The notes beneath the pieces were generated by a model, which was given only the letters and a program-made list of their open reading frames with translations, was not told the DNA's origin and did not search any database. A stretch of DNA of 64,000 bases, from assembly GCA_029339505.1 (NCBI GenBank), contig JAQISU010000123.1, positions 4,386,501 through 4,450,500 of the forward strand, read 5' to 3'. The stretch comes from Unio delphinus. Its lineage: Eukaryota > Mollusca > Bivalvia > Unionida > Unionidae. Below, one piece after another: positions 7,277 to 54,629 of this stretch; positions within the stretch are counted from its first letter, which is position 1; every line of letters starts with the position of its first letter. The translations under genes were made by a program, and so were the position numbers.

Positions 7277-7599
7277 AGCAGCAGAGAGGGTGAACAGACC
7301 AAGTTTTCAAGCAAAAATAAGGCTTCTACGGAGACCGAAACTATTTCAGACAAACCGAAACTATTTCAGAGTGTGTGAATCAGACCAACTTTTACAGGCG
7401 TCAATTTAGCAAACTGAGGCTTCTCAAAATTGCTGAAATAGGCCTCAATTTAGTAAACTGAGGCTTCCTTGAAAATATTTTAATTAATATTTTCAGTAAA
7501 TTTAGCAAAATTATGAAAAAATTTCAGTAAAAAAAGAGGACGCCATTGTCGTTGGCGTTCACCCCGTTGCTGCTATGAAAATCTTCGATTTTTACTAAC
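7277..7599. repeat. Left terminal inverted repeat, Element A
   Basis: Begins AGCAGCAGAGAGGGTGAAC and matches the reverse complement of 23197-23503 with indels and substitutions, which dates the copy as not recent. Near its inner end (about 7554-7574) an imperfect inverted copy of the terminal motif appears (GTTCACCCC then TTGCTGCT). It also contains a GAAAC-TATTTCAG direct repeat near 7338-7370 and a tri-loop palindrome at 7578-7592. Confidence 0.88.
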
Positions 7600-7642
7600 A
7601 AGTTTTTTACGATAAAAATCATTGTTGAAATTCGAAGAATTT

Positions 7643-9034
7643 TCACGATTTCACAAACAGACTAATTTGCAAAACCTCATCTTGTAGATCAATTAGATTT
7701 CCTGACTGGTCAGTGAGTTTGAAATTAATTCTCGTTAAAGAATTATTATGACATCGCATAAAGACTGGATTAGTTGGGTCTTCAATTATTAACCATCCTG
7801 GAGGAACTGTGGGTGCAAATGAATATAGAATATATCCCTGCTGAGCTTGATTTGATTGCTCAAGATTTATTTGATAGCTGCCTTCGATAACGTCACATAC
7901 TAAATTCAGCGCTATCACCGAGGATATATTCACGTTATTCGGAGCGATGTGTTTACCGCCGCCTTCTGGGTCATTATTATGTTTGAGGATTTTTATTTCC
8001 GGTGATGTTGTTTTTTTCCATGTATCGTGAATTATTTTAAAACCAATATCGATGGCATCACTGAGAAGTTTTTTTAGTTCTGGTACGTTATATCCGGGTA
8101 GTTTGAATGCTGGAATATCTTCGACGCGGATATTGAATTGTGATGCAACTGCAGTTCTCGTTTCAGGTGTGGAGTTTAAAATCTCTTAAATAATTCGTAT
8201 ATTTAATACATCCATGTCATCGATGATTTTATTGTATGTTTCTACTACGCTGATAAATTCATCTCTGGTAAGAGTACCTGATTTAAGAGATATTAATAGC
8301 AGTGATAGATCGTTATTCATTTTTTCAAAATTTTCAATAACTATATTTGTTTCAATTTTAAAATATGAATAAAGTACTTTATCCAGAACCCAATAAGACC
8401 CCTCTGTTGAAAAAGTATCCATCACTGTTACAGCCTTAAAGGGTTCCAACTCATCAAAAATTTTATAACTTTTTATTGGATTATCGTGTTTTATCCTGTC
8501 TGTGACATAATCAGATTTTTTGGGTTCTGGTATATCAACGGTTTCTTTTTGTCGAGGTGGGGGTAGTTCAGGCCATCCTAACACCGATCTTATAGAACTC
8601 TGATAAATATCAACGACATATCCAGGAGATTTGATCTCGATCGCAGATGATAACGTCGGCTCGTGGACGGTTATAGCGATTTTTGATTCTTTTCCAGTGA
8701 TAGATTTTATTCTTCGTTGTAATTCGTTATTGATTTGTTCGATTTGATATGACTCCGTTGGTAACGAGACAACGTTCCAGTCTGGAGTTCCGTCTTCACG
8801 ATTTTTCCACGCGAACACCAAGGAATTATTTGGTTGTTGACCACCAAATGCTACAGATCTGATATTGGGCCAGCTATGATACACTCGTAGTTTTTCTAGC
8901 GCTATCTCTTTCACGGGAACGGGGATCGGGAAATTCACACTGAATTCAGGACGCGTTGAGGTTATTGATATCATGCTTGTTTTCACCGGTGTTGTATTTT
9001 CTACTATTTGTTGAAGTAGTTCTTGTGACGACAT
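7643..9034 (-). pseudogene. Spike/penton-like virion protein, broken (A)
   Basis: Two blocks align to the intact 449-residue protein at 37602-38951: an N-terminal part (8186-9034, ATG at 9034) and a C-terminal part open from about 8165 to 7643, separated by a frameshift/stop near 8180. The C-terminal segment contains QQGYILYSFAP and a closing strand with INFKLTDQSGNLIDL, the type of beta-rich ending seen in minor capsid proteins of these viruses. Role as penton or vertex spike is inferred from that ending and from the position at the end of the late module. The start overlaps the upstream membrane-protein gene by 89 bp. Confidence 0.65.
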
Positions 9035-9500
9035 TATTATTATTATTATCCCGCTCTAATTTCAGCATTGTTGATTTATACAATTGAGCCATCGTTGAGA
9101 ATTCGCTATCTGATCTTGTTGTGTCATCGAGTGACGATGATATCAACGAGGACAATTGCGAGGATGCGGTAGATGCAACGTGAAATTTAATTACATAGTC
9201 GTGTAGTTTACTCTGGCTACACGATGATAGTTTTTTTGTGATCCCTGTTAATATACCCGCGATTGTAGCCACCGCGGAAATAGCGATTGGAACTACGACC
9301 GGAGCAATCATTGTAACCGAAGATAGTATTATTTCAGCAGCAGTGATTACACCAGACACCGAATACACTGTGATATCAACCGCGGTTATTCTTCGTTGGT
9401 ATTTTTTTTTTATTTGATGCTCCTCACAGCGTGAGTTGAGTTTAGTTTGAAATTCTCTGACCTGATCATAGCGATACTGATAAACTGACGGGATTGTCAT
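8946..9500 (-). CDS. Putative virion membrane protein (A)
   Basis: 184 residues. An N-terminal basic, coiled-coil-like segment (about 1-38) is followed by a long hydrophobic, Ala/Val/Ile-rich stretch (about 40-90, two likely membrane spans), then a polar helix with SQLSSLISSSLDD and a low-complexity Asn/Thr tail. Homologous to the protein at 39008-39559. The pattern of N-helix, hydrophobic pair and a D-E-F helix recalls a conserved Polinton protein of cnidarians (recalled, unnamed). An AATTGAAAAC-like motif lies about 21 bp upstream of the ATG. Function unknown; membrane insertion is inferred from hydrophobicity. Confidence 0.7.
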   Translation of the reverse strand: MTIPSVYQYRYDQVREFQTKLNSRCEEHQIKKKYQRRITAVDITVYSVSGVITAAEIILSSVTMIAPVVVPIAISAVATIAGILTGITKKLSSCSQSKLHDYVIKFHVASTASSQLSSLISSSLDDTTRSDSEFSTMAQLYKSTMLKLERDNNNNNVVTRTTSTNSRKYNTGENKHDINNLNAS

Positions 9501-9521
9501 CTTATTTTAGCAGCGTTAGTG

Positions 9522-9530
9522 TTTTCAATT
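9522..9530 (-). promoter_or_regulatory. Candidate late-gene motif AATTGAAAA
   Basis: Read on the minus strand, AATTGAAAACACTA lies about 21 bp before the ATG at 9500; a second copy is at 9549-9557. The same word precedes several late genes in Element B. Confidence 0.45.
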
Positions 9531-9560
9531 AATTTCAAATTGCTAGAGTTTTCAATTTAA

Positions 9561-10579
9561 TTATTTCCTTAAATCCACTACGAATTCTACGTACCACGTT
9601 ACTGAAACCCTGGCTAGATTTCTATCTGTGGTCGTTATCGTGAACTGTTCAGATACATCCTTGTTGATGATCGTTGATATTGTATTATTGACTCCAGATG
9701 AACTATTTGATGATATATTGAATTGAGTCGGTGATGCTATTGTTAATCGATAAATACCCTTGACTGCTGCGGTTACGTGTAAAATGTTGTTTGTGGGGGT
9801 CCACGCAAATGAATCGTGTTGAATCGTGTATACGATATTGTTGGTGCTCTTATGAGGAATTTTTTATTTTTTCAATAACACATATCATCCTCGTTGTATC
9901 ATTCTTCATTGCGTTGTTGAATGTTTTTAGATTATCGATGGCTTTTTTAATATCAGGAAGGGTTATTTCAATTTTATCAAATGGGGTTCCAATAAATTTA
10001 TCAATGATGTTTTTACGAAACATTGAAAACTGTTTCACGTGTTTTTCATATTCGGATTGAACAGTTGCTAGTTCCAACATAGAATCATTTATCGAGGTGA
10101 GTTTTGGTGTGGTCACTGGTGGATTTCCAAAAAATTCTAGCATGGGTTTATCAATTTTGTCAATAAATTTTTTTTTGTGTTGTAGTAAACTGATCAAATA
10201 CAACTATATGATCGTCATACTTATCATTGAGCGATTTCAATGAATTCGCCGTGCTATCGAGTGTTGCTAATTTATCTGTGATCGTTGAAGCAAGTACACC
10301 TGGTTTGAGTTTACCCTGATCGGAAAATAACGCGATAGTATCCTCTGCTGCGTCTCGTCGTTTAACTAAAATATCATCGAGGGAGACATTACTAGTTTTC
10401 AATTTACCCTGACAATCGCCAAATACAACTATTTCACCAGGATCAACATCTACTAGGTTCAACGTTTCGGCTATTTCATCTTCGATTAGTTTCTTAACAT
10501 TTTTGATTTCAACTTCACCAGTATCCGGTTTCTTCAACGTTGATAAAGGTCGTCCCCAAATATCAATCATTGTTATCAT
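9561..10579 (-). pseudogene. Fibre-like protein, broken (A)
   Basis: The N-terminal domain (IDIWGRPLSTL, start at 10570 or 10579) and the C-terminal beta-rich domain (around 9561-9820, with IVYTIQHDSFAW) match the 475-residue protein of Element B. The middle is shorter, with about two IIDKFIGTP-type shaft units. Frames change near 10180, at a run of T residues, and again near 9850, so the gene cannot make one protein. Shaft repeats plus a distinct C-terminal domain suggest a trimeric attachment fibre; this is inference from architecture only. Confidence 0.65.
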
Positions 10580-10598
10580 AGAAATCTTTTCTCTGTTT

Positions 10599-10629
10599 AA
10601 AATCTAAAAGATTTTCAATCTAAAAGATT
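10599..10629. repeat. Two adjacent short palindromes (A)
   Basis: AAAATCT-AAA-AGATTTT at 10599-10615 followed by AATCT-AAA-AGATT at 10617-10629, between the fibre and PX-protease genes. Members of the tri-loop palindrome family. Confidence 0.8.
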
Positions 10630-10632
10630 TCA

Positions 10633-11574
10633 TCAAAGATTTTCAATCCAACGACTGCTAGTATACTCATTCACTACTACATGGGGTGGTTTTGATTGTA
10701 AATTACTTTGCAATTTCATCAAAGATTCTCGTGAAATAGCATCAAGTACGTTTAATACTTCATTGCCATATATGGGTGGGTCAAGCCTTGTTTGTGTTGG
10801 TAACGTGGAATACCAACGGGGTATTTTTAAGCGCGTTGATAAATCAAGGATATAACGGTTAAATTCCTTCGGAGGCGCTAGTCCATATGAGTCAAAATAA
10901 ATGATCTCACGTGGATCAATCGCGTATGCAACCCAGTGGGTTCCAGGTCCATCGCTGTTATCTAGATTAATAATACCCGTTTCAACATTATTTGGTTGTG
11001 CCGGTAACTGATCTTTCATAAAAACACCTCTGAAGTTTTGAATCGCGAGTTTTTTAGCGGCATCAATTAAATCAAAATTGGACATTGGAAGATTTTTCAC
11101 TAGTAAACTGGTCCTAGTCTCAGTCCCTTTCCGTTGTACCATGAATACGGGGTTCCTGGTAGTCTTAGACCCTTTCCTTTTTTTTTTACCAGATCCACGG
11201 ACGGATCCACGAGTTGCTTTCTTTAGTGCCATTCCTGCCGCGGTACCAGCGGCTCCTAACGCTGCCTCTTTAGCTACCGCTGGGGCCGCTGCGGCAATCA
11301 ACCCTGGAATCAACCCTAACAGCGGGAATATACCACCAGTCTTTTCCATGTTTTTAATCGCGCTCGTATAAAGAGTAATCTGAACTCCCTTTTTTTCTTT
11401 AAGCGCTTTATTAAAATGATTAACCTGAGTCTTCGTCAGTGATAGTTTATTCCCCCCGCCATTCATTTGATTAGGTTTCAGCGTTATAGTGGTTTCACAT
11501 TGCTTAGCTGATTTGGATTGTAATTTTTTTAACTGACCAGGTGTCAACGTGACATTGATATTATTATACGACAT
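10633..11574 (-). CDS. PX-like protein fused to adenain-type protease, inactive (A)
   Basis: 313 residues. Part one (1-about 125) has lysine-rich repeats of an LTPGQLKKL type, then a strongly hydrophobic Ala/Gly segment (GGIFPLLGLIPGLIAAAAP) and a basic stretch, as in Polinton PX-like proteins. Part two is an adenovirus-type cysteine protease with GTHWVAYAID (catalytic His) and YFDSYGL (catalytic Asp). The position of the nucleophile reads PPIYGNE, Tyr instead of the Cys present in Elements B and C, so the enzyme should be inactive. The fusion depends on one extra A in a 10-A run (11178-11187); the alternate frame still encodes the LPGTP-type PX C-terminus seen in B and C. The protease may also initiate at the ATG at 11085. 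Confidence 0.8.
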   Translation of the reverse strand: MSYNNINVTLTPGQLKKLQSKSAKQCETTITLKPNQMNGGGNKLSLTKTQVNHFNKALKEKKGVQITLYTSAIKNMEKTGGIFPLLGLIPGLIAAAAPAVAKEAALGAAGTAAGMALKKATRGSVRGSGKKKRKGSKTTRNPVFMVQRKGTETRTSLLVKNLPMSNFDLIDAAKKLAIQNFRGVFMKDQLPAQPNNVETGIINLDNSDGPGTHWVAYAIDPREIIYFDSYGLAPPKEFNRYILDLSTRLKIPRWYSTLPTQTRLDPPIYGNEVLNVLDAISRESLMKLQSNLQSKPPHVVVNEYTSSRWIENL

Positions 11575-11661
11575 TATACAAAACAGATTGATTCTAAATC
11601 GCAGAGAGAGAGAGATGGAAAATCAATTACGAAGTAATCAAATCAATTACGAAGTAATCAA

Positions 11662-13077
11662 TCACAGATTTTCCACTGGTGCATCTACCACTCTCATTCG
11701 TCCACCAACACCTTCGAGTATCATTGATTTATCACTGAGAATGACAGCAACCGCTCTATAATTAGCAATAACACCAGGAAGGGTTACACGAGCTCGGAAA
11801 TGTATATCAACGACGGACTGTCTCATCAAGTCAAGATGTTCCAACGAAAAGTAATAAATCGGATATAGATTTTTAAAATCCAACTGTGATATTTGCAAAC
11901 CAGTATCAACATTTTGATCACGTCCCATATACGACAACATGTTATGATAAACTCGTGCAATATGATTTTCTGTGTAATTTAGTTGTATATCCTCTGATGG
12001 TTCTTGCTGTCCGTTTATTTTCAGTGAAACTTCATTACACCCAATTTGATCAAATATCATATGGGAACGTTCTTGATTATTTAATCGCGCAGTATTCTGT
12101 AGCGCAACAAATATGTGACGTAGAGCTGAAATACCCTGTTTTGATGCTAGATGCCATGTAATTGTACCATCCATATTATAATCCATGGTATCTGTGGACG
12201 TTGACAACCAACTCAACAATCTCTTTTCGCCCCGATCCATAAATGATAGTAACCGTGGTTCTGTTGACAACGACGGTGTCAACAGCGGCATCCACAGTGA
12301 TAGTTTTGATAAAACGACTTTACCAGGGGCAACGCCAGCACCGCGCCAGATTGCATTATCATCAGTACCCCTTCTCATTAGTGCTACCGTATGCTTTACT
12401 CCATATATAACTTTTCTGACGTTTCTACAAAATCCAAATATGTGATCCAACGGAATCGCACATGAAAACCGTCGACGCTGTCCCTGTAACGTTGCTACTC
12501 GTGTTGCAAATCCTAGGTTGTAACCGGGAATATTATTGATGACATCAAATTCAGCAGCTGGTCTTGTATATCCGGCTGGTGCTGGATCAACTGCTGTAGC
12601 TCGTACAGCTTTTACTCTAGAATATTGGACGTGTTCAGCGTTATCAGTAATATCCTTCGCGAACATCATAGACGGACCTGCCGATCTTGTATAGTCATCA
12701 GAATATCTCGCTAACCCGATCACCCCCGTTGCAATATCAACCTCACGTTCAGTAGATTCGATTTCCCTTCCATCAATGAGATATCTAGCACTTTCAAATA
12801 ACGCCATGATGCCATTGTTAACAAAACCAACTCGGATAGTTGGGTTATCATCATATGGTGTATTAGCTAGAACATTTGTTACGAGTTCACCTTCGACTTC
12901 AATAAAGGCTTCACAAGGCAAAAAGTATTTACTGGTATCATGAACTTGAAGTTCAATTCGTGATCTAAGATCAGGTTGTACTGCGTGATAGGCAAAAAAT
13001 TGATAATCGCGTACAAAATCATCCTTGGGTACTGGGGCGTCCATGTCAAATGCACTATCAGGGTTCTGTTTGAACAT
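11662..13077 (-). CDS. Major capsid protein, hexon-like (A)
   Basis: 471 residues, uninterrupted. It resembles a widespread family of Polinton/adintovirus major capsid proteins (recalled), with FGFCRNVRKVIYGVKHTVAL in the middle, a DLKNLYPIYYF-like segment (LDFKNLYPIYYFSLEHLDL) and a closing VILSDKSMIL strand. Expected fold is a double jelly roll forming the pseudo-hexameric capsomer. About 75-80 percent identical by eye to 42154-43578. It follows the second PX-like gene and precedes the PX-protease gene. Although the element is decayed this gene is open, so loss of function may be recent, or the gene is simply lucky. Confidence 0.8.
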   Translation of the reverse strand: MFKQNPDSAFDMDAPVPKDDFVRDYQFFAYHAVQPDLRSRIELQVHDTSKYFLPCEAFIEVEGELVTNVLANTPYDDNPTIRVGFVNNGIMALFESARYLIDGREIESTEREVDIATGVIGLARYSDDYTRSAGPSMMFAKDITDNAEHVQYSRVKAVRATAVDPAPAGYTRPAAEFDVINNIPGYNLGFATRVATLQGQRRRFSCAIPLDHIFGFCRNVRKVIYGVKHTVALMRRGTDDNAIWRGAGVAPGKVVLSKLSLWMPLLTPSLSTEPRLLSFMDRGEKRLLSWLSTSTDTMDYNMDGTITWHLASKQGISALRHIFVALQNTARLNNQERSHMIFDQIGCNEVSLKINGQQEPSEDIQLNYTENHIARVYHNMLSYMGRDQNVDTGLQISQLDFKNLYPIYYFSLEHLDLMRQSVVDIHFRARVTLPGVIANYRAVAVILSDKSMILEGVGGRMRVVDAPVENL

Positions 13078-13099
13078 TTTATATTATATATCCGCTGGT

Positions 13100-13617
13100 C
13101 TAAATTGGAGGTGAAATCGTGAAAATTCTCACCAATTTTAACCGACGTCTTTGACGTTTGTAGAAATTCTTTGAATTTCCAAGACCACTTCCCGCTATCA
13201 TATTTGCTGTTATATTATCCTGGGCGTTCGGAGTCATCAACGATGATGAAATCAACGACTGTAGTTTTTCATCTACTGCGTTATTTATTATTTTACTAAC
13301 ACTTGCAGGCATAACCGCAGTAGATGGCAGTGAAGTCATTTGTGGTTTTGAAAATCCTTAGTTGTTAGTTTATCCTTCGCGGCTGAAAACGCCTTCCCGG
13401 CAAGATCACCAACAGCGCTAATACCCTTATCCCTGATAACATCAATGGCCTTCATTGATAGTTGTTTTGCTAGCGGCGCTACTTTTGGAGCCATTCTTGA
13501 AAATAATCCCATTATAGTATTACCGAGACCATCTCCATAGTATGCTAGGTATTTTGGCAATCGTGAGTTTACCACGTAGACGTTAGTTGGTTTATCATGG
13601 TTGTAGTGTATGATCAT
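13100..13617 (-). pseudogene. Second PX/pVI-like virion protein, frameshifted (A)
   Basis: An N-terminal piece (13336-13617) with GDGLGNTIMGLFSRMAPKV and a C-terminal piece (13100-13339) are in different frames and overlap at ATGA. In Element B the same protein is one 171-residue frame. Amphipathic helices after a Gly-rich turn resemble adenovirus pVI/pX-type internal capsid proteins. The break lies at a spot where B carries extra ATGACGAAGTCAT palindromes and A carries a partial GGATTTTC word. Confidence 0.65.
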
Positions 13618-13647
13618 TCTCTATTTAATTGATATTAATCTAATCGC

Positions 13648-13666
13648 GAAAATTCTACGAATTTTC
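13648..13666. repeat. Tri-loop palindrome, 8-bp stem (A)
   Basis: GAAAATTC-TAC-GAATTTTC between the coiled-coil and second PX genes; a second one, AAAATC-CTC-GATTTT, lies at 13715-13729 over the end of the coiled-coil gene. Confidence 0.85.
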
Positions 13667-13727
13667 ATCTTCGAGTTTAATCGCTATGATAACCGTGATG
13701 AAAATCCAAAGGTGAAAATCCTCGATT

Positions 13728-14811
13728 TTAGTTTACTAACTCTTCAATAAAATCTCAATATGTGCTGATATCCATGATACCACCTTGAAATAGTCGCCTA
13801 CAGATATTAGCAGCTTCATTGATTATTTCTGGTGAGTTATTTCCAGCCCGTTTTCCCCCTACAAGTATTTCATATCGTGCTATATCACCAAGAATATTAC
13901 CAGGACATGAAATTGCAGGCAATTTCGCTGATATCCTTCTCCCAAACGTCTCAACGGGGGGAGATTCCTCATCTTCATACTCTGCATCGTCACCAATTGC
14001 ACCTTGTGTATCTATGTTTGGATTGGGTTGTGATTATTTAGGTGAGTAGGACATTTTCTTCGAAGATTGTTTCCGCCGCTGCAATTTTTGTGGTTTTTGT
14101 TGTTGTTTTAGTTCTTCATATTTATTGTATACGGCACCCACTATTTTCATGTATTCAATGTATGATGTATCTTCTTTTGGTTTAATTTGACTTTTTTTAG
14201 TTTTAATTTTGTAAATCACATCAGCCCAATGTTGTATATTTTTAATATATCCATGTTGCTCTGGTTTCAACATTTTTTTTTCTGTTTTCATAATTCGTAA
14301 CAACAAACACAGGAATTTCTGCTGGATTAGTATTATCAATTGTTGCTATCACCTCCTCGTTAAATCTCTCCCGTAAACCCTCTACTGTTCTTCTTGATTC
14401 AAGTGGTGAAAATTCTTCAGGGAAATCTTTTCGAGATTCATCACTAACATCAATACCACTTTGTCGTTGTATTTCCATCTGAGTTTCCATATCACCTGAA
14501 AGTTTTTGTATAGCCCGTTTTGTTTGTCCAGTTTCGATTGCTATTTTTTCAAGTTCACCAAGAAGAGGTCTCTCTACTCGTTTCCCCACCTCAGGGACAT
14601 CTCCGTATATAGCTCGTTCAGTAGCTGTTTTCACATCTGTAGTTGCAGCAACAATCGGCTTAAAGAGTTGTTCAGAACCCTCTGTAAAATCAGTCTGAAG
14701 TAATTGTCGCTGTTGAAGTTTTTCACGTATACGATCACGAAGGGGTAGTAGTTTATTAATATCGCTCAGTCGCTGTTTTGCGTACCGTGTGGTCAGCGAG
14801 TGTCCTATCAT
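13728..14811 (-). pseudogene. Coiled-coil virion protein, broken (A)
   Basis: The N-terminal 170 residues (14242-14811) match the 350-residue protein of Element B (44199-45251). The rest is in other frames: 14034-14339, then a C-terminal block near 13728-13960 containing GGKRAGNNSPEIINEA and RRLFQGGIMDI. At 13755-13757 an in-frame TGA stands where B has CGA. The frameshift near 14270 is at a run of T residues. Long charged helices suggest a structural or core protein; function unknown. Confidence 0.65.
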
Positions 14812-14860
14812 TATTGAAAGAGTATCACTATTGTTAAATTGCAGACAATTTCAATTTGTG

Positions 14861-14878
14861 GAATTGCTTTTGCAATTC
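14861..14878. repeat. Palindrome GAATTGC-TTTT-GCAATTC (A)
   Basis: 7-bp stem with 4-nt loop in a noncoding gap; related to GAATTGC-AAA-GCAATTC at 15471-15487. Confidence 0.85.
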
Positions 14879-14991
14879 ATCAAAGTAATTTCAAAGCAAT
14901 TCACCGAGTAAAAAAAAAATACTACGTTGAAAATTACTATGAATTTTCCATTTAAAATACCGTGTGAGCTGTCATTGTTGACTAAACTCAC

Positions 14992-46536: not shown

Positions 46537-47491
46537 CTGAGGGGGACCGCCCCACCCCCCCCAATTAATAGAAAAAAACATCTTCCGTTCCGCCATCAAA
46601 TAATGTATCTGCTATGGGGACCGAACACGTAGTAGTTGATAGCTATGTTTACAAGACAAACACGATACCATTACACCACGGACTAGTCATACAGAATAGA
46701 GATTTTTTAATATATATATATATATATCTGATATACTTTACAATAAGAGATTTTTAAAATAGACAATTTTACTGTATCCATCGTATTTAGGAATATAAAA
46801 TACTAAGTACACAAAAAAAAAATTAATTTAACTGTTTGTAAATATCAATCACGCATGCCTGCGTCAGTGAAATACCGATCATACAGGGTGGGAAACAGAA
46901 GTGTGTACTGAAGGTCACATGAATACCGATCAATATAGAGGAGAGGGAAGACATGTATACTTAACAATAAGAGATTTTTAAAATAGACAATTTTATGCTG
47001 CAACAATGAGAAATATTTTAAACAAAATAATACAGTTGTTTAATAAAACAGCGTTTTATATACTCTGTTATAATTCTCTAGATAAAATACATTCACATAC
47101 AAGGAATTTTAACCACGCCCACATACTTCAATGAATAGGAAACACTCGCGTTCCGGCTGAGCGAACATAGGTAATGCGTGGATTATAAAGAACGTCTGTA
47201 CTGAAAAGAACGAGTTAGCTGTCTGCTTTACTGCTAGTCCACCCACCCCACACATGAGATATGTAGATAAATAAAACTAATAATGCAGTTTTAGCCCACA
47301 AGTGACAATAAAAAGTTTTATTCTCTATCGAAAACTCATGCATTATATCTCCATTACAGTCACGTGGGCGCGCCTAGTCAAGTACAGGTAATATAGCAGG
47401 CGACAAATTCCTTTGACGTCATAATACAAGGGAACTTAGTAGGTAGAGTGTGAATTGTAGTGCGGATTTATCCATAAAGGATTTATCTCCC

Positions 47492-47992
47492 TTAAATAGT
47501 TTCAGTGTATACGAACTTTATTTTATGACCATTTTTTTTAGACAGAGATGTTTTAATGATTTTTTCAGCAACAAATCGAATTGAAGTACTACAAATATCG
47601 AAATATTTTCCAGCCGCATTTATCGACTGAAAGCTTCTCTCTTCATTATTTTCTAAATCAAACGATTTCACACCCTTGGGATGTTTTGCGTGCTTACCAG
47701 CGTTGCTTTTTAAAAGGTTATCGCGCTGCGAGACGGCTTGAAGATTCCCAAGACAATTATCAGTCTTCACGCCATTTATGTGATCAATCACAAGACCGTC
47801 TTCGATTAATCCGTAAAATGCTTCATAGATGGCTCTGTGACAGAGATACTTCTTCCTCCCAGCTGAAAACATCAAATAGCCCATATTATTCAGATACCCA
47901 ACAGGTTCTTTGAGTCTGCGGTGCCTGACAACACCATCACTAGAGGCTTCGTAATTAGCAAGCACTGGGTGAGGTCTGAAATCTTGGCTCAT
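47492..47992 (-). CDS. HNH homing-type endonuclease (NUMOD4-HNH-NUMOD1) (B)
   Basis: 166 residues. Order: NUMOD4-like start (NYEASSDGVVRHRR, about 13-26), a YLMFSAGRKKYLCHRAIYEAF block, HNH core LVIDHINGVKTDNCLGNLQ (about 72-90) and a NUMOD1-like helix-turn-helix (FQSINAAGKYFDICSTSI). This architecture cuts DNA in phage and intron homing endonucleases. It lies in the early module next to the Cys-rich gene. It could serve replication, recombination or its own spread. The A copy has a nonsense codon. Confidence 0.85.
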   Translation of the reverse strand: MSQDFRPHPVLANYEASSDGVVRHRRLKEPVGYLNNMGYLMFSAGRKKYLCHRAIYEAFYGLIEDGLVIDHINGVKTDNCLGNLQAVSQRDNLLKSNAGKHAKHPKGVKSFDLENNEERSFQSINAAGKYFDICSTSIRFVAEKIIKTSLSKKNGHKIKFVYTETI

Positions 47993-48005
47993 TTGTATAA
48001 TAATA

Positions 48006-48332
48006 CTACTTGTCTAATTTATTATCTGCTTTAATTATAAATCTCTGGATATAATCTTGAGGGATTTTTATTACTTTGTCCTTGATTTTATCAAGGATGA
48101 CGGAGTCAATGATTCGTTTGTCATAGTAGCGTTTTAGTTCCCTGTATCGTTTACCCCCACAAGCAAGGCATAATTGCGATTTTCCTCTAACACCCACCCC
48201 ACATTGGAGGCATGGGAGAGGGCCTTTTGAACCGTTTCTCACGCTTTGCATATGATACCCACAGAATTCACTTCTGCATGATTTGTTACACGGGGTTGTA
48301 GATCCAATCATTAGCCACTTGCAGTGATTCAT
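48006..48332 (-). CDS. Cys-rich zinc-binding protein (B)
   Basis: 108 residues, ATG at 48332. Zinc-ligand pattern C-CNKSC-FCGYH, then LPCLQCG and LCLACGG knuckles, then a basic helix. Thirteen bp separate its stop from the HNH start, so they are probably co-transcribed. The two Cys regions are nearly identical to A, the C-terminal tail is not, which suggests that the zinc modules are the functional part. Likely nucleic-acid binding; family unknown to me. Confidence 0.7.
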   Translation of the reverse strand: MNHCKWLMIGSTTPCNKSCRSEFCGYHMQSVRNGSKGPLPCLQCGVGVRGKSQLCLACGGKRYRELKRYYDKRIIDSVILDKIKDKVIKIPQDYIQRFIIKADNKLDK

Positions 48333-48374
48333 TATACTATATTTTTCTATTTAAATACTTGTTTTAATTATAAC
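48333..48374. promoter_or_regulatory. Divergent early promoter gap (B)
   Basis: 42 bp of almost pure A/T between the Cys-rich gene and the polymerase start, nearly identical to the A counterpart (17311-17354), including TATATT and TATTTAAATA words. Confidence 0.4.
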
Positions 48375-48614
48375 ATGGAGGAGTTCAAGAGATTATCGAA
48401 AATTAAGCCCTGGAAAAATACTAAATTCAATCTTGATAGGGAGTTCCAAAGATTATCGAAAATCAAACCTTGGAAAAATACTAAATTCAATCTTGATAGG
48501 GAGTTCCAAAGATTATCGAAAATCAAACCTTGGAAAAATACTAAATTCAATCTTGATAGGGAGTTCCAAAGATTATCGAAAATTAAGCCTTGGAGAAATA
48601 CTAAATTCAATCTC
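48375..48614. repeat. 60-bp tandem repeat, four units, polymerase N-terminus (B)
   Basis: Units begin near 48375, 48434, 48494 and 48554; the middle units are identical or nearly so. A has one unit and C is not present here. In frame, adding 20 residues per unit. Confidence 0.93.
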
Positions 48615-51600
48615 GATAGAGTCTCTGATACACCAAAACGTTTAATCGGTGATAGAACTATACTCGGTAAAATCAGGGAGTGTTTTAATGAATTCTACCG
48701 AGACGGTGCAGCATACTGTTGGTCGACATTTCGAATTATTGATGAAGATGTCAATGTACCCATCATCGATGCTACTATGAACGATAAAAGAGCAGCTGAG
48801 ATAATTTCACATCTTGGTGAGAAATCCAAAGGATTTCAAGCAAAGCAATTTCCATCCAAAGGGGAAATTCAAAGATGGAAATCCAAAGGTGGAAATCCAA
48901 AGGATTTCAAGCAAAGCAATTCCAATCAGAAGTATTTTTTCAGAATAAAATTCATTATCGAAGTCGAAGGCAAATGGATTATTAAGGATAAATTTGAACC
49001 AATCCTCAAGGATAAAAAAACTGTCATGGTAAGTAGAGATTCCAAACCAGGAATTCTAACTGGAATTGACAAACCATACTACGAGAGATCTTATCCCGTA
49101 ACAGCAATCGTTTATGGGATATATCCGTTAAATGATAAACCCGATATCGCAAAACTAGCTCCTATGAAATATTCACCATTGACTTCGTCAAGGCTCAATT
49201 GTGTAGCAACACGGGTAATGGAACACTTCACAAATGCATCCCGAGGAAATAAACTAACTGATCTGCGACGTAGGAAAATAACCGAATGGGAACTGACAGT
49301 GAAACAGCACGGTGCAAAGATTTCTGATATAGCTAAATTAGAAACATCATTAAGATTTCCAATAACCGTTATGACGATAACCGGAGAAGTATTACACGAA
49401 CCGAAATATAAATTACAAGGAGCGCCAATACAAATTATTGATCATAACGAACACGCGTGGACACCTGCAGTAACAATATTTCCACGAGATAGAACCGTGA
49501 GATATATCCCCCCGGAATTTTCCGGGGATGTTTTCTATGAAGAGAAATTATTTGATGCTATTCATGCGTTGTGTAAAGATGATCCTGTGTCAGTGTGGTT
49601 ACTTAGTAGTGCTGGTTCCGAATCAGGATTTGATCAATTTGTAAGACCAAATGGTGAATTATATCGCGTTGAAGAATTAGATAACAGAATGAGAAAAATC
49701 GCTAATGATTTTTCACCAGAGAGTTTCCATGAAAAACTACTCACGGATAGTTTTACTATTTCTTCAGTGGTAGCTCACTTCGCAAGAGAAAAAAACTCCT
49801 GGCGTCCAACACGAAGTGATTTTCTCGAGGACGTTAAATTGAGTTGCATCGAATTTGGTCATGGAGGACTGTGGAATACAAAATACCATCGTGACGGTAT
49901 GATTTCAATTGATATATCCGCGTGTTATCCTGGAAGTTTTCTCGGGTATGGAGAATGTAGTAACTATTTTAAACGATTTGGACACCCCACGCATGAAATG
50001 ACTCGTGTTGCGATTAATGGACCATTACCTGATTTTGATTTAACCGGATTCGCTCGTGTGATATCATTTGAACTCGCTACAGGGTTACATCCGTGTAGTT
50101 ATGTTTGGCTCGGTAGACACCTATCTGAAAAGGCCTGGATGCCAATAGTGTTACTACGATATATGATTGATTGTGGCATGCTGATATCGTTGATTGTTTC
50201 CGAAGCTATTATATGCTATCGAGCTCAGAAAGAAGTTTGGCTACCACAACCCGATCTAGATCGTATAATCAGCGAACTACGAAAACAGTGTCCAGATGGA
50301 AATTCTTCGAATTTCAGTGAAGAAGAAATCATAAATTGGTCTAAGAAGTTATTTGAAAGTAAAAAAGAACAAGCAAAGGATTTTGGACGAAAAATAATCG
50401 GTAAATTTACCCAGGGTGGAAGATACGACAATGCAAAATTTTCCTCGCGGTTGATCATAGACGTCGCTGAATACGATTTTCTTGTAACGGATTTAACGAA
50501 ACAGGGAAAACTTGTATCCCGTAAGGATGCTTTTCTATCCAATGGTGAGAAATTGGGTACGGTTGTTACCTACTGTGATGGATATAATTCCCAGTACACA
50601 CATTTGAGAAGTTCAATGCTAACCTATGCTTCTATCAATTTATTTTCGATGATAAATAGATTTCCTAATACCGCGGTTAGAGTAGCCACTGATTCGATGT
50701 ATATACACAATAAGTACAAATCAGCTGTAGCGGCATTCACAGATCCGGAGGAATCGTGGGGGCGTTGGCGATTTAAAAAGGAGATGCTACATGAGTATTG
50801 TGAATCCGCAGACGTTGCCATGGATGAAAAGTACTTAAAATGTGATGAGATTCAATCAGAATTTTCTAATGCACCACCGGTATCTGATCCAATATGTAGA
50901 TACAAGACAGTTTATTTAAACGGTTGTGGTGGGTCAGGAAAGACAACTCGTGCAATTGAATTATATCGTGGTGGTGGAAATACTTGTATTTCTACTAACA
51001 TGATTGTGTTAACACCGACTCACAGACTCGCCAGAGACATGATACAGCGAGGGGTAAATGCCTGTACTTATCATAGTTTTTTTCGATGGAAAGGTGACAA
51101 ATGGACTCCTGAGCGTATGGGTGATAAATTCATTCCTGAAATCATAATTTGGGATGAAATATGCACAGTGTCATTAGATGTATTAAAAACATTTCTTGAG
51201 TGGTTGTTAAACAAAAACACAAAAGTCGTCATGTGCGGTGATCACGGCCAACCACCACCATTTGTCGGTGGATCTCCACATGAATGGCTAAAGGGTTCTG
51301 TAGACTATTATGAAGAAATTAATACCGACCATAGATCACTTGATGAACAATTACGCGAGTTCAAAGCACTGCTTAGATTACAACCGGATAAAATCCAATG
51401 CGAAATAGCGCGTGAAATAATTTCAGAAACTCCTATGAATGATTTCTGGGAAACGTGGAGACCAAATGATTTGATAGTAGCAAGTAGAAAAATAGTCAGA
51501 GACACACTTCAGATGAAGTTATTTGAATTGCATAAAGAAAAATTTGCAACGCTTCCAGTACCGTTGTGTTATAGGCCTTCGGATACACGAAAGCAGAATA

Positions 51601-52019
51601 TAGAAGTTGATATTCCAAGCCTGACAAAGTCAGGAAGTGAAAAGCAGATTCTCGTGTTAAATGATATTGTGCTGGTTGATATCAATGTCGTTGAAGATGC
51701 ATTGCGTGCTAATAAATCCCCATGGACGCTAGGATACGCAGCAACAATACACTCTTCACAGGGATTGACTATATCGGATACAATTGTTTGGATGGTAGAT
51801 AATCGCATCGAATGGTCGAATTTAGTCTATCTCGCAGTATCCAGAGTACGAAGAATAAATCAGCTTCGAAGAATTGTCGTCATGACAGAGTCAGGTGGCA
51901 ATGATGAAATCATTGGTGATGATAATGACACAATAATAAGTGATATTGATGTTAGCATCATTAATAAAAAACTCTCCGGTTACAAACAACAGGACAAAAA
52001 AAAAACAACGAGAATTTGA
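48375..52019 (+). CDS. Family-B DNA polymerase fused to SF1 helicase (B)
   Basis: 1,214 residues from the ATG at 48375 (the frame opens at 48324, but that would overlap the divergent gene, and A conserves the later site). Residues 1-80 are four copies of a 20-residue unit (RLSKIKPWKNTKFNLDRE). Polymerase motif A is SIDISACYPG (Asp about 513), motif B is around GRKIIGKFTQGG (Lys about 673) and motif C is VATDSMY (Asp about 773). The helicase follows: GCGGSGKT (about 850-857), IIWDEIC (Asp-Glu about 927-928), MCGDHGQPPP (about 955), HSSQGL (about 1126) and VSRVR (about 1155). I recall similar fusions in Polinton-like elements of several animals and a glomeromycete fungus. It would replicate and unwind the linear genome. 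No exonuclease motif is seen. The frame ends right after a 10-A run, before an HNH tail. Confidence 0.9.
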   Translation: MEEFKRLSKIKPWKNTKFNLDREFQRLSKIKPWKNTKFNLDREFQRLSKIKPWKNTKFNLDREFQRLSKIKPWRNTKFNLDRVSDTPKRLIGDRTILGKIRECFNEFYRDGAAYCWSTFRIIDEDVNVPIIDATMNDKRAAEIISHLGEKSKGFQAKQFPSKGEIQRWKSKGGNPKDFKQSNSNQKYFFRIKFIIEVEGKWIIKDKFEPILKDKKTVMVSRDSKPGILTGIDKPYYERSYPVTAIVYGIYPLNDKPDIAKLAPMKYSPLTSSRLNCVATRVMEHFTNASRGNKLTDLRRRKITEWELTVKQHGAKISDIAKLETSLRFPITVMTITGEVLHEPKYKLQGAPIQIIDHNEHAWTPAVTIFPRDRTVRYIPPEFSGDVFYEEKLFDAIHALCKDDPVSVWLLSSAGSESGFDQFVRPNGELYRVEELDNRMRKIANDFSPESFHEKLLTDSFTISSVVAHFAREKNSWRPTRSDFLEDVKLSCIEFGHGGLWNTKYHRDGMISIDISACYPGSFLGYGECSNYFKRFGHPTHEMTRVAINGPLPDFDLTGFARVISFELATGLHPCSYVWLGRHLSEKAWMPIVLLRYMIDCGMLISLIVSEAIICYRAQKEVWLPQPDLDRIISELRKQCPDGNSSNFSEEEIINWSKKLFESKKEQAKDFGRKIIGKFTQGGRYDNAKFSSRLIIDVAEYDFLVTDLTKQGKLVSRKDAFLSNGEKLGTVVTYCDGYNSQYTHLRSSMLTYASINLFSMINRFPNTAVRVATDSMYIHNKYKSAVAAFTDPEESWGRWRFKKEMLHEYCESADVAMDEKYLKCDEIQSEFSNAPPVSDPICRYKTVYLNGCGGSGKTTRAIELYRGGGNTCISTNMIVLTPTHRLARDMIQRGVNACTYHSFFRWKGDKWTPERMGDKFIPEIIIWDEICTVSLDVLKTFLEWLLNKNTKVVMCGDHGQPPPFVGGSPHEWLKGSVDYYEEINTDHRSLDEQLREFKALLRLQPDKIQCEIAREIISETPMNDFWETWRPNDLIVASRKIVRDTLQMKLFELHKEKFATLPVPLCYRPSDTRKQNIEVDIPSLTKSGSEKQILVLNDIVLVDINVVEDALRANKSPWTLGYAATIHSSQGLTISDTIVWMVDNRIEWSNLVYLAVSRVRRINQLRRIVVMTESGGNDEIIGDDNDTIISDIDVSIINKKLSGYKQQDKKKTTRI
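48821..48908. repeat. Palindrome-rich insertion in polymerase, B only
   Basis: Two GAAATCC-AAA-GGATTTC palindromes (48821-48837 and 48892-48908) with related AAGCAAAGCAATTTCC words between, all in frame. A lacks about 30 codons here. Confidence 0.88.
50299..50315. repeat. Tri-loop palindrome in polymerase, shared with A
   Basis: GAAATTC-TTC-GAATTTC at the same codon as 19010-19026. Confidence 0.85.
51620..51634. repeat. Tri-loop palindrome CCTGAC-AAA-GTCAGG (B)
   Basis: In frame in the helicase domain and absent from A. Another, CAATGAT-GAA-ATCATTG, is at 51899-51915, also B only. Confidence 0.88.
51996..52005 (+). promoter_or_regulatory. A-run with downstream HNH frame at +1 (B)
   Basis: Ten A residues. 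The helicase frame stops 12 bp later, while the conserved zinc tail is one base ahead. A has nine A residues with the same frame offset. Candidate ribosomal or transcriptional slippage site. Confidence 0.35.
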
Positions 52020-52248
52020 TATTGATGCTAAATTAATAATCACTTTGAAGAAACAACAGAATAATCACTGCGCGAGTTGCAATTGTATAATGCGTTGGCA
52101 GTATTCGGATAAGGATCCTCGCCAATTCACCGTAGACAGAAAAAATAACAATCTCGGTCATGTCAGAAATAATGTGATGTTGACTTGTCTTGAGTGCAAT
52201 AGACGCCGGGGTGAAAGCACAATGCCTCTGGCATCGGGTGCTAATTAA
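52006..52248 (+). CDS. HNH/zinc tail of polymerase-helicase, other frame (B)
   Basis: About 80 residues: REFDIDAKLIITLKKQ lead, CASC, DPRQFTVDRKN, LGHVRNNVMLTCLECNRRRG. The CxxC - DR - GH - N - CxxCN pattern is a zinc-bound HNH nuclease (endonuclease VII-like). There is no ATG between the A-run and the domain. As I recall, relatives carry this tail in the same frame as the helicase, so it is probably translated as an extension. It overlaps the convergent integrase end by 8 bp. Confidence 0.65.
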   Translation, partial: QREFDIDAKLIITLKKQQNNHCASCNCIMRWQYSDKDPRQFTVDRKNNNLGHVRNNVMLTCLECNRRRGESTMPLASGAN

Positions 52249-53203
52249 GACCATGCGGTGGCAATTGAGTATCCTCGGGAATCACTTGCAGTTGTTGTCG
52301 AGTAAATCCTCGCTGAGGAGCAGTTGAATCCAGTTTATAGATTGCTGGTCTACCAGTTGATCGTGTTATACTAGATATCTTATGCGTAGTGACGCTCCAA
52401 ATAGGATCAGTAGCCCTTTTTCTACCCCCTTCAAGCTCTCCTGGTTCGTATAAGTACCTAACAGTGACATTACTACCAAGAATTGGTTGGGAAACGCTAG
52501 CGTTTCTAGGGAAATCTTTTTGTGGTTGTACGGGTATTGACTTCTTTTTAATCGCGTTGATAGGTTTCATGTTGATTGTTCTAGTAATCTCGTTATTCAG
52601 TGCAGTAATCACAGCTGGTAACCTTTTGACCCATTCACGGGATCGCTTTTCTTGAATGAATTCTTTTGCGTATTGATATCCAAATAACCGCTCAGCAATC
52701 GTCCGATTAAATCGTTCGACAATGGCCTGATCGCGATGTAGCGCAGTATGCCCTCGTCGTATGGTGACATTATGATTTTTCATTGTAGATAGAACCGCAC
52801 CCTGAAATTCCTTGCCAGGATCAACCTGCAATAGATTCGGCCAGTGCAGAGGACCTCGTCGATAAATCCTTTCAAATGCAGAAGCAACTTCAGTGGCTGA
52901 TTTTGTTTTTAACGGTTCTGCTTCTTTGTATCGACTTGCAATATCAACTACGGTTAACGCGTATTTGTAACCACGATCATGTGGCAGAAATAATATATCA
53001 GCCTGATGAACTTCATTAGGAGCGGTCACATCAAAATGCGAGAATTGAATTTGTTTAGGTGGTGGTAGATAAATTTGCCATAGTGCCTGTTTGGATAACC
53101 AATCCGCCGCTGTAGTTTTTTTCACTTTTGCAGCGCTAGCGAGTTTATGGACTGCTGATTTACCCCTCCAGTATCCTCTTGGGGAATAATAAATTGATTC
53201 CAT
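52241..53203 (-). CDS. Retroviral-type DDE integrase (B)
   Basis: 320 residues from the ATG at 53203 (MESIYYSP); the frame extends to a GTG at 53221. Catalytic residues: D69 in HQADIL, D127 in LLQVDPGKEF and E163 in AIVERFNRT, with 35 residues between the last two. The C-terminal part (PAIYKLDSTAPQRGF) is a DNA-binding-like beta region. It joins the linear genome ends to host DNA, giving the 5-bp duplications seen. The start follows the PLA2 stop by 4 bp. The C-terminal third carries a perfect GAAACGCTAGCGTTTC palindrome (52491-52506) that A lacks at this site. Confidence 0.9.
   Translation of the reverse strand: MESIYYSPRGYWRGKSAVHKLASAAKVKKTTAADWLSKQALWQIYLPPPKQIQFSHFDVTAPNEVHQADILFLPHDRGYKYALTVVDIASRYKEAEPLKTKSATEVASAFERIYRRGPLHWPNLLQVDPGKEFQGAVLSTMKNHNVTIRRGHTALHRDQAIVERFNRTIAERLFGYQYAKEFIQEKRSREWVKRLPAVITALNNEITRTINMKPINAIKKKSIPVQPQKDFPRNASVSQPILGSNVTVRYLYEPGELEGGRKRATDPIWSVTTHKISSITRSTGRPAIYKLDSTAPQRGFTRQQLQVIPEDTQLPPHGLN
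52491..52506. repeat. GCTAGC palindrome inserted in integrase (B site)
   Basis: Perfect 16-bp palindrome GAAACGCTAGCGTTTC within an in-frame insertion. A has nothing at this site but has the same word about 170 codon-bases away at 21140-21153. Confidence 0.9.
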
Positions 53204-53207
53204 ATTA

Positions 53208-53576
53208 TTAATTACCAGCACCCATCATCAATTTGCCTTTCATAGCTGATTTTACCAACCACGAAGCCAACTTTTCTTTAAAAGATTTATCAGGAATAGC
53301 ATTTAACGCATGAATTAATTTCACATCCGCGAGATGCCTGTTTTGCAGATTGCTGCTTTTATAAGCAACATCATGAAGGTGACAGGCCTTATCAATGGCG
53401 TTTATTGGTTCTTCACCGGGTCGGGGTTGATTTTGATCATCAAGTCTGATATCTAATCGTCTTCCGGGACCACAGTAGCTATATCCTGGAAGGTGCTTTT
53501 CTCCGGGGTACTTTGCCCATGGGGTTCCAGGGAGCTTTGTCAATTTGGCTGCGATATCACCTCCTCGTTTTTTTTT
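53208..53576 (-). CDS. Phospholipase A2-like virion protein (B)
   Basis: About 120 residues counted from the A-run. KKKRGGDIAAKL, LPGTPWAKYPGE, Ca loop YCGPGRRLD, a helix with the catalytic ACHLHDVAY dyad, and a basic C-terminus. The family role is lipid hydrolysis during membrane penetration. The first listed codon at 53543 is TTG; no ATG occurs in frame before the Ca loop, yet the upstream residues are conserved with A in this frame. The zinc-ribbon frame runs over the A-run, making a -1 frameshift the simplest source. The 4-bp overlap with the zinc-ribbon stop is at 53540-53543. Confidence 0.78.
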   Translation of the reverse strand, partial: KKKRGGDIAAKLTKLPGTPWAKYPGEKHLPGYSYCGPGRRLDIRLDDQNQPRPGEEPINAIDKACHLHDVAYKSSNLQNRHLADVKLIHALNAIPDKSFKEKLASWLVKSAMKGKLMMGAGN

Positions 53577-53746
53577 AAAACATCTCCGGATTGTAAAATC
53601 TTTGATTTTGTAGAAATAAATCTAAACTTTTTTATACCACATGTTGCACATCTACCAGTTAGTGCTGATCTGTTATTTTTAGTTGTAACCGTCGTCACAT
53701 CATTTGTGCTAGTACGCGTTTTACACTTCACACAATATAGATCCAT
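53540..53746 (-). CDS. Zinc-ribbon protein, DUF5679-like (B)
   Basis: 68 residues, ATG at 53746. CxxC pairs at LYCVKCK and GRCATCG with KKFRFISTK after them, matching the small DUF5679-type ribbon of large DNA viruses and Polintons (recalled). After residue 45 the sequence becomes low-complexity and passes over TTTTAAAAAAAAAC. The C-terminal 20 residues are conserved in nucleotides with A but may be only the frameshift window. It is divergent from the ATPase, 17 bp away. Confidence 0.75.
   Translation of the reverse strand: MDLYCVKCKTRTSTNDVTTVTTKNNRSALTGRCATCGIKKFRFISTKSKILQSGDVLKKNEEVISQPN
53568..53576 (-). promoter_or_regulatory. Candidate -1 frameshift heptamer, zinc ribbon to PLA2 (B)
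   Basis: In the zinc-ribbon frame the minus strand reads TTA AAA AAA AAC GAG, which contains a canonical A_AAA_AAC heptamer; the -1 frame enters the PLA2 protein. Same nine-A run in A (22354-22362). Confidence 0.45.
53595..53609. repeat. Tri-loop palindrome AAAATC-TTT-GATTTT (B)
   Basis: Within the zinc-ribbon gene, just upstream of the slip site; A has unrelated sequence here. Confidence 0.82.
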
Positions 53747-53763
53747 AATTTATGTATAGAGAT

Positions 53764-54423
53764 ATGAATATAATTGATTTTTCAGCGACTAAAATAAGAG
53801 AACCAGTTAAGCATCATGCAGCGCTACCAAACTCTATCCGTGCAATTATAATCGGGCCATCTGGATCCGGTAAAACGCAATTGTTGCTCAATTTAATAAT
53901 GAGATGGATGAAGTGGGATAAGTTGTATTTAATTGCCCCTAGCGTAGATGATCAACGATGCTATGAAGTGTTAAAGGATTTTAACGAGAATGCATCAGAA
54001 ATTAAAGGTGAGAATACCATTGATTTTATAACTGATATTGACGAGGCGCCATCCGTGGATGACCTTGATGGGAGCATTAACAATTTAGTCGTATACGACG
54101 ATGTGATGTTAGACAATCAAAAAAACCCAGCTAGAATATTTTCCCGGGGGCGTCACAAAAACACTGATGTGATATATGTCACTCAACGCTACACTCAGAT
54201 TCCAAAAGTGATCAGAGATAACTGTAATATTCTTGCTGTGTTTAACGGCGTTGATACACATACGCTACGAAATATTTGGCAGACATGGTGTTCCGATATG
54301 GACTTCAATCAATTTAAAAATTTCTTTAGTCATGCTCAGTCAACCCCGCATGGATTCGCAACAATAAATCTACATGATCCTCGGACTCGATATCGTATCG
54401 GACTCGATCAAATATTTGGTTGA
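53764..54423 (+). CDS. DNA-packaging ATPase, FtsK/HerA (A32) type (B)
   Basis: 219 residues from the ATG at 53764 (MNIIDFSATK, matching A; an in-frame ATG at 53752 is four codons upstream). Walker A GPSGSGKT at 31-38, Walker B VVYDD at about 109-113, polar stretch SRGRHKNTDVIYVTQ. Motor for genome packaging. Its last eight codons fall in the right TIR, so the other TIR carries an antisense copy of them next to the spike gene. Confidence 0.92.
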   Translation: MNIIDFSATKIREPVKHHAALPNSIRAIIIGPSGSGKTQLLLNLIMRWMKWDKLYLIAPSVDDQRCYEVLKDFNENASEIKGENTIDFITDIDEAPSVDDLDGSINNLVVYDDVMLDNQKNPARIFSRGRHKNTDVIYVTQRYTQIPKVIRDNCNILAVFNGVDTHTLRNIWQTWCSDMDFNQFKNFFSHAQSTPHGFATINLHDPRTRYRIGLDQIFG

Positions 54424-54629
54424 AATCATTTATTATTTTTTGTTAACCCAGTGATGAAATCACTAGTGATGAAATCACTAGCAGCAGAGAGGGTGGATGA
54501 CAACGACGTTGGCGTATATAAGGAAATCTTATTTTATCGAATAGACGCCATTTTTTTTACTATTTGGCAGAAGCCTCAGATTTTCGAATCGACGCTCGGA
54601 AAGTTGTGAGGTTCACCCTCTCTGCTGCT
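54401..54629. repeat. Right terminal inverted repeat, Element B
   Basis: 229 bp, apparently a perfect inverted copy of 37341-37569. Contains two AGTGAT-GAA-ATCACT palindromes (54450-54479). Confidence 0.93.

Follow-up and report, generated by a model that had tools for sequence, protein, structure and literature searches.

The 64,000-nucleotide (nt) stretch of Unio delphinus DNA analysed here (assembly GCA_029339505.1, contig JAQISU010000123.1, positions 4,386,501 to 4,450,500), referred to as the window, carries two integrated Polinton-like viruses, Element A (7277..23503) and Element B (37333..54638), the latter being enclosed by an older related copy, CD (35367-37332 plus 54639-57940). Both elements contain hairpins of 15-20 nt with a 3-nt, sometimes 2-nt, loop, which between copies of the elements are present, absent, replaced, stacked or loop-inverted at the same sites. 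An initial annotation of the window had suggested a mobile or continually regenerated hairpin, or templated mutation by the viral polymerase, an idea which is supported by the presence and absence of insertions, by their replacement with other hairpins and by loop inversion. Neither of the two outcomes named there as refuting it was observed when looked for, namely counts at the level of shuffled or host sequence, and ancestral sites lost by substitution alone. Taken together with the reading frame being almost always kept inside genes, the copy-to-copy differences point to an unusual and active palindrome-inserting process which operates during the elements' own life.

Hairpin excess in the two elements

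Stems were defined as maximal perfect stems enclosing a 3-nt loop whose ends do not pair, and 40 dinucleotide shuffles served as control. By this definition A and B together hold 38 stems of at least 6 base pairs (bp), where shuffles average 8.5, and 16 of at least 7 bp, where they average 2.0, meaning that the recurrent 3-nt-loop design, whose named examples were all found where the initial annotation had placed them, is more pronounced than had been claimed. For thresholds of at least 5, 6 and 7 bp, 45, 17 and 5 stems were identified in A (shuffle means 15.4, 4.3 and 1.0) and 35, 21 and 11 in B (15.2, 4.2 and 1.0), whereas the stretch 23504-37332, consisting of host DNA and part of the older copy, yielded 21, 7 and 2 (16.6, 4.6 and 1.2) and the stretch 54639-64000, consisting of the older copy and another Polinton, yielded 5, 0 and 0 (8.2, 2.2 and 0.5). 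Counts in the elements hence exceed both shuffled and host sequence. Expressed as density, A and B contain 1.10 loop-3 stems of at least 6 bp per kb as compared to 0.35 for loops of 5-21 nt, and no loop-3 preference was found in ten random 5-kb host pieces (0.36 versus 0.35 per kb). Codon structure was considered by synonymous-codon shuffling within the genes of B, which hold 15 loop-3 stems of at least 6 bp as compared to a mean of 5.4 and a maximum of 12 in 60 shuffles. Short palindromes arising by chance from AT-rich sequence and codon structure are therefore a practically negligible explanation and are rejected for the hairpin class, given the excess over both kinds of shuffle and over host DNA as well as the insertion polymorphism described below, although some weaker stems are common to A and B in aligned codons (e.g., 8932/38831) and individual sites may still be due to chance.

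Remaining loop lengths in A and B lie mostly near expectation, with unexplained exceptions at stems of at least 6 bp for 8-nt loops in A (12 versus 4.2) and for loops of 1, 2 and 14 nt in B (14 versus 6.4, 12 versus 4.0 and 12 versus 4.2). Stems with 8-nt loops number 7 versus 0.8 in A at 7 bp or more, and many distinct ones also occur in the Pol copies L050-L069. The left host flank (1-7276) shows a slight loop-3 excess (13, 5 and 3 versus 7.6, 2.2 and 0.5 at the three thresholds), with the word family described below being absent.

Insertion polymorphism among genomic copies

The 2.5-Gb genome was searched using 121 bp of A as query, which gave 1024 candidates and 40 scored places, and copies were aligned for the late region (25) as well as for the capsid/protease and Pol regions (20 each). 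Here, Pol denotes a long helicase-domain protein named for motifs that resemble those of family B polymerases, a putative polymerase in which Pfam finds helicase-type domains only. Pairwise identity amounts to 86-100% for the late stretch (median 91%, 325 pairs) and to 81-98% for Pol (median 89%, 210 pairs). Site tables comprise rows spanning both anchors only, 17 to 26 per counted site, with A and, where aligned, B included; L013 and L014, which agree at most sites, were each retained in S1-S6, L054, for which there was no match, was omitted from the Pol alignment, and S8b, S9 and P2 are outside the counts. Rows L033, L039 and L044 appear misaligned at S8, as do these and L031 at S10.

Presence/absence or variant alleles were identified at S2, S4, S5, S7, S8, S10, P1, P3, P4 and P5, and the alignments document insertions, replacements and inversions, not merely loss by substitution. 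At S5 (13648..13666), 15 of 26 rows carry the empty form CTAATCGTGAAACTCTTCG, seven carry GAAAATTC-TAC-GAATTTTC, three have this stem around the inverted loop GTA, and in one (L023) the site is occupied by another hairpin, AAATCC-TAT-GGATTT, which is present as a 23-nt insertion with zero mismatches in its flanks and GAAA at each end. Next to this, at S2 (GAAATTC-TTT-GAATTTC, 13163..13179) the 18 nt bearing the hairpin are absent in six of 23 rows and one row holds a collapsed GAAATTTC, at S3 (TCATC-AAC-GATGA, 13234..13246) alleles measure 12-48 nt with every length divisible by 3, and at S6 (AAAATC-CTC-GATTTT, 13715..13729) copies with different stems and loops were found. S7, located past the capsid stop of A and consisting of two ATTAC-GAA-GTAAT hairpins (11626..11658), shows 21 distinct alleles in 21 rows with differing hairpin words, and S10 (AAAATCT-AAA-AGATTTT, 10599..10615), downstream of the stop at 10633, holds different hairpins in some copies, with the loop ACA/TGT being inverted among copies. 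S8 comprises AGGAACC-ATA-GGTTCCT (41518..41534), within the N-terminal codons of a protease-like gene, and the adjoining GAAATC-GAA-GATTTC (41549..41563), directly past the stop of the gene at 41568-42146.

Within Pol, P1 consists of two GAAATCC-AAA-GGATTTC hairpins (48821..48908; 48821-48837 and 48892-48908) in an in-frame segment missing from four related proteins. P3, occupied by GAAATTC-TTC-GAATTTC in A (19010..19026) and B (50299..50315), shows 15-nt length steps among copies, lengths of 52, 61, 76, 91 and 106 occurring in 2, 10, 5, 2 and 1 of 20 rows; its alleles either join CCAGAT directly to TTCAGCG or hold GGAAATTCTTCGAAT between them, and some copies add a second unit, GGAAAATCGGAGATT, at the identical junction of AT and TTC. 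P4 (GAAATAC-TT-GTATTTC, 50977..50992) is empty in 12 of 20 rows, the others holding three different palindromes besides a long repeat insert in A. P5 (CCTGAC-AAA-GTCAGG, 51620..51634) is empty in 18 of 21 rows, and the remaining three contain three different hairpins, two of which share one stem. P6 (CAATGAT-GAA-ATCATTG, 51899..51915) resides in a length-variable segment. The repeat insert in Pol of A (19686-19853) encodes about 60 residues and is built of 12-nt tandem repeats, at a position where B and other copies hold palindromes.

Inversion of the loop within an unchanged stem was identified at S5, S10 and P1 and for two S1 pairs in different flanks. Counting distinct loop-3 stems in the copies gave 36 for the late stretch as compared to 3-13 for other loops, and 22 versus 2-9 for the capsid/protease stretch. 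A triloop stem was also found in 19 of 38 clean insertions, a figure which is not relied on, as it has no random control and partly counts mutual variants (S2, S3).

Alignments of A, B and CD with one another are in line with these observations. Eight of the 22 alignable loop-3 stems (of the 38) overlap a homolog gap of at least 6 nt, as compared to six of 108 stems with loops of 6-21 nt and 5.4% of random 17-nt windows. Conversely, 52 insertions of 6-45 nt were examined, ten of which harbour or give rise to a stem of at least 6 bp with a 2-4-nt loop (random mean 2.07, maximum 5 in 60 draws), with control loops of 7-9, 10-12 and 15-17 nt giving 1, 1 and 3 (random 1.80, 1.73 and 1.32). Two sites were found with one arm already in place: at the intragenic AATGAC-GAA-GTCATT (43830..43844), A has the loop together with the right arm and is missing 9 nt covering most of the left arm, and at GAAACTT-TTC-AAGTTTC (42135..42151), directly past the capsid stop of B, the outer left arm is present in CD, where 12 nt are missing. 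In the Pol gene of B, a hand tally places five of eight stems with loops of 2-3 nt mainly in alignment columns where half or more of the related proteins have a gap. These columns make up 89 of 1154 residues, and one of seven distinct stems with loops of 6-11 nt resides mainly there.

Reading frame and coding sites

The initial annotation had placed hairpins in gene gaps as well as, in frame, inside genes, and sites of both kinds are among those described above. Coding status was assigned manually on the basis of the gene map for B, with S2, S5 and S6 excluded as uncertain, and across the eight sites thus designated as coding, one length class modulo 3 comprises 162 of 170 alleles (S3 25/25, S4 24/26, S8 19/20, P1 16/17, P3 20/20, P4 20/20, P5 20/21 and P6 18/21), or 160 of 167 when the three apparently misaligned S8 rows are dropped. 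S2, S5 and S6 are also largely of a single class (22/23, 25/26 and 17/18), and mixed classes were found at S1 (15/4/3), S7 (8/10/3) and S10 (6/6/5). As the frame is nearly always kept at coding sites, insertions appear to have been filtered while the genes were in use.

A shared stem vocabulary

Stem sequences had been described as differing, which holds true in that differing stems exist, but not in full, as a shared vocabulary was identified. A and B contain 12 occurrences of the degenerate word AAAWYC-NNN-GRWTTT at spacer 3 and zero or one at each other spacer from 0 to 11, and at spacer 3 the word is absent from 69 kb of host DNA (50 kb of pieces plus 19 kb of window flanks). In further copies totalling 141 kb, spacer 3 accounts for 88 occurrences and spacers 4, 5 and 6 for 30, 28 and 15. 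Considering exact 15-nt words, 12 of 32 recur at two or more unrelated sites, e.g., AAATTC-GAA-GAATTT at S1, S4, S7 and P3, and one six-base arm pairs with up to six different loops. AAA lies inside the first five arm bases in 17 of the 38 stems. A 17-nt word queried against viral contigs was found at one site in each, without clustering, among the matches listed (80 contigs).

The stems are furthermore biased in their closing pair, which is 5'C.G3' in 21 of the 38 (17% in short stems) and G.C in one, and in their loops, which are GAA/TTC in 14 (6.8% in short stems) and AAA/TTT in ten. Such biases would be anticipated if hairpins of single-stranded DNA play a role. Among DNA triloops, C-GNA-G is unusually stable, and folding with DNA parameters closed six of six typical hairpins over the 3-nt loop.

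Carrier elements, relatives and further hairpin sites

Both carriers possess terminal inverted repeats (TIRs) as found in Polinton/Maverick-like viruses, with 88% identity in A (7277-7599 / 23197-23503) and 99.2% in B (37333-37569 / 54401-54638). Pfam identified genes for a double jelly-roll capsid, a helicase, an A32-like ATPase and an rve integrase in both, the integrase match lying below the curated cut-off in A and above it in B, which in addition encodes an HNH protein; the Polinton/Maverick set of rve integrase, A32-like ATPase and double jelly-roll capsid is hence complete in both elements, with rve of A being sub-threshold. The HNH protein of B is of the HNH_3/NUMOD1 type (47492-47992). 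The gene at 41077-41631 is provisionally termed protease-like, with Pfam giving no match; its N-terminus (41580-41631) varies in length among relatives, some of which carry palindromic peptides such as IRSRI at the protein level. A short frame following Pol (51940-52248) corresponds to the Pol tail in relatives P0001 and P0003, the latter of which gives a weak HNH match. The predicted structure of Pol of A was discarded as unusable (mean predicted local distance difference test score 33.5). The rve integrase of another element resides in 57941-64000, where zero loop-3 stems of at least 6 bp were found.

Copies L003 and L004 lie on the window's own contig, about 85 kb and 174 kb off, and are identical across 13600-13720, which likely reflects a recent segmental duplication. 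No relatives with DNA outside this genome were confirmed in viral contig scans using Pol, capsid, Pol alignment and integrase alignment queries, and a genome-contig scan gave one 5.1-kb contig, L001, which holds six loop-3 stems of at least 5 bp and one of at least 6 bp, thus no clear excess. Relatives of Pol, the integrase and the protease-like protein were compared as proteins only.

Additional hairpins were located as follows. In A, AAAATC-TTC-GATTTT (7578..7592) resides in the left TIR, with its mirror (23204-23218) directly past the ATPase stop, AAATTC-GAA-GAATTT (7628..7642) adjoins the stop at 7643, and GAATTGC-AAA-GCAATTC was found at 15471..15487. In B, the TIR holds CTAGTGAT-TTC-ATCACTAG and AGTGAT-TTC-ATCACT (37489..37520; mirror 54450-54481), AAACTC-GAA-GAGTTT (43608..43622) lies downstream of the stop at 43649, and AAAATC-TTT-GATTTT (53595..53609) occupies a gene gap in which A shows an 11-nt gap. 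ATCCGT-TC-ACGGAT (41603..41616), with a 2-nt loop, encodes the peptide IRERI at a position which is length-variable in relatives.

Models for hairpin formation

The explanation which accounts best for the data, and which is held with about even confidence, regards the hairpins as micro-insertions of self-complementary DNA that arise over and over by fold-back or microhomology template switching as the elements replicate as viruses, and that subsequently undergo selection. Initially, the nascent strand would quit its template at a short outer arm, in many cases GAAA or ATTTC, and a short core would then be copied from another hairpin or from nearby. Next, the strand may fold back over a 3-nt loop, whereby its own arm would serve as template for the second arm, and finally it would go back to the main template. 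The new outer arm would re-create a target at which another insertion can take place. During the infectious phase, selection would purge insertions that break the frame, so that those at gene ends, in gaps and in loose protein segments would remain. Candidate enzymes are the element's Pol or a host repair polymerase, and it has been reported that DNA polymerase theta can prime stem-loop synthesis from two terminal base pairs (PMC11292364). That stems remain perfect while their sequence drifts is explained if one arm templates the other, and both the inversion of loops in unchanged stems and the cases with one arm already present fit template switching. At 43830 and 42135 the presumed new arm is the reverse complement of the adjacent, presumably older arm, and at P3 and S5 the core is not accounted for in this way. 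The origin of the hairpins is read here as both local and by spread.

Several observations weigh against this model. Recurrence of the exact 15-nt words at unrelated sites is not predicted by purely local template switching, so that a donor hairpin must be assumed, and no local template is apparent for the core enclosed by the outer arms. Template-switch hairpins described in ribosomal RNA (rRNA) genes are enriched in 4-nt loops and depleted in 3-nt loops (PMC8794818). Fold-back extension of single strands was not observed with the B-family polymerases Pol delta and RB69 gp43 (PMC11292364), which speaks against a B-family viral Pol as agent. The hairpins of B, numbering 29 when pairing loop ends are allowed, are densest within 60 nt past stop codons (8 in 960 nt), with 7 falling into the 2351 nt of remaining noncoding and 14 into the 13995 nt of coding sequence. 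Whole Pol copies show no loop-3 excess, with 24 distinct stems of at least 6 bp versus 29 for 8-nt and 26 for 12-nt loops. The older copy CD shows no hairpin excess even with mismatches allowed, and former hairpins in CD are consequently not claimed. On a Pol tree built without these sites, at least 8 changes at P3 (20 rows), 7 at P4, 5 at P1 and 3 at P5 are required, counts which recombination between copies may inflate, mimicking repeated gain, and in which gain and loss are indistinct; at most sites allele polarity is inferred rather than set by an outgroup.

The recurring 15-nt words and the pairing of one arm with as many as six loops are taken to favour an existing hairpin as the source, copied by way of an outer-arm match (GAAA or ATTTC). 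A further view is put forward tentatively: the hairpin words may represent a self-copying element at the lower size limit, 15-20 nt long, for which one-arm templating would be the means of spread inside virus genomes and from one to another. In this view, a single arm would be copied and the other rebuilt by fold-back over the 3-nt DNA loop, whereby pairing would be renewed with each move and the stem could drift. If this holds true, insertion re-creates its own target, which would allow for stacking in frame-keeping 15-nt steps and provide a source of new protein segments.

Functional signals, i.e., hairpins for RNA 3'-end formation or termination or palindromes bound by a dimeric DNA-binding protein, in which pairing is selected and compensatory change alters the sequence, are an unlikely explanation, yet one with several findings in its favour. 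The density peak past stop codons would be expected for signals, the site past the capsid stop holds hairpins of different sequence in A and B, stems at S6 and P3 vary with both arms changed together, and the word has a fixed 3-nt spacer. As tests of an RNA role, loops were compared between strands, giving no clear sense-strand bias (23 to 21 for stems of at least 5 bp and 19 to 9 for those of at least 6 bp), and one-mismatch stems were found to comprise 30 G-T and 19 A-C mismatches. Against signals stands that many hairpins are in-frame intragenic insertions, that P4 and P5 are missing from most Pol rows and that S5 is more often empty than filled.

Somewhat more doubtful is a true mobile micro-element which is moved by a dedicated enzyme, for instance an HNH or homing-type endonuclease of the element, and inserts at GAAA/TTTC. 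The words shared by unrelated sites, the GAAA-bounded insertion in L023 and the HNH_3/NUMOD1 protein of B would be compatible with this idea. However, insertion lengths range from 9 to 24 nt (the range examined), ends and other junctions vary, stems differ in sequence and length, and the sites are linked to no enzyme.

Comparison with known systems

With dozens of copies residing in one genome, the elements form a natural system that shows directly where tiny hairpins are present, absent, replaced or inverted. If fold-back copying holds true, template switching in this virus lineage would be frequent enough to generate in-frame protein variation, and origin and spread of very short palindromes would become directly testable. 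Among the papers listed by searches of mainly open literature, none describes such micro-hairpins in Polinton-like elements in its title or the opening of its abstract. Five known systems were compared.

The template-switch hairpins of rRNA genes (PMC8794818) resemble those reported here in their perfect stems resulting from arm-to-arm copying, in occurring as insertions and in loop inversion being a named outcome, but they favour 4-nt loops, whereas the hairpins of A and B have 3-nt loops, a shared word family and a spread to unrelated sites. Fold-back by Pol theta (PMC11292364) likewise yields inverted-repeat insertions from a self-folded strand; the study is, however, on the biochemistry of human polymerases and concerns neither a hairpin family nor a virus. 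The palindromic elements of Rickettsia (PMC10969869), to which the initial annotation had likened the hairpins, share the palindromic insertion into unrelated protein genes, often in frame, but are a likeness only; they are a family of about 150 bp, roughly ten times longer, with a conserved peptide, and the 15-20-nt hairpins described here are degenerate with 3-nt loops. Coding palindromes in nematomorph mitochondria (PMC6649704) are intragenic perfect inverted repeats that are gained and lost and for which template switching was suggested as well, but they reach up to 284 bp and are mitochondrial, as opposed to micro-hairpins of integrated viruses. Finally, the hairpin polyadenylation signals of Mimivirus (PMC4402537) are transcript-end palindromes of a DNA virus without sequence conservation, and 8 of the 29 hairpins of B occupy the corresponding position after a stop codon, where they are denser; most of them lie elsewhere, many being intragenic with sites often empty, and they are known here at the DNA level.

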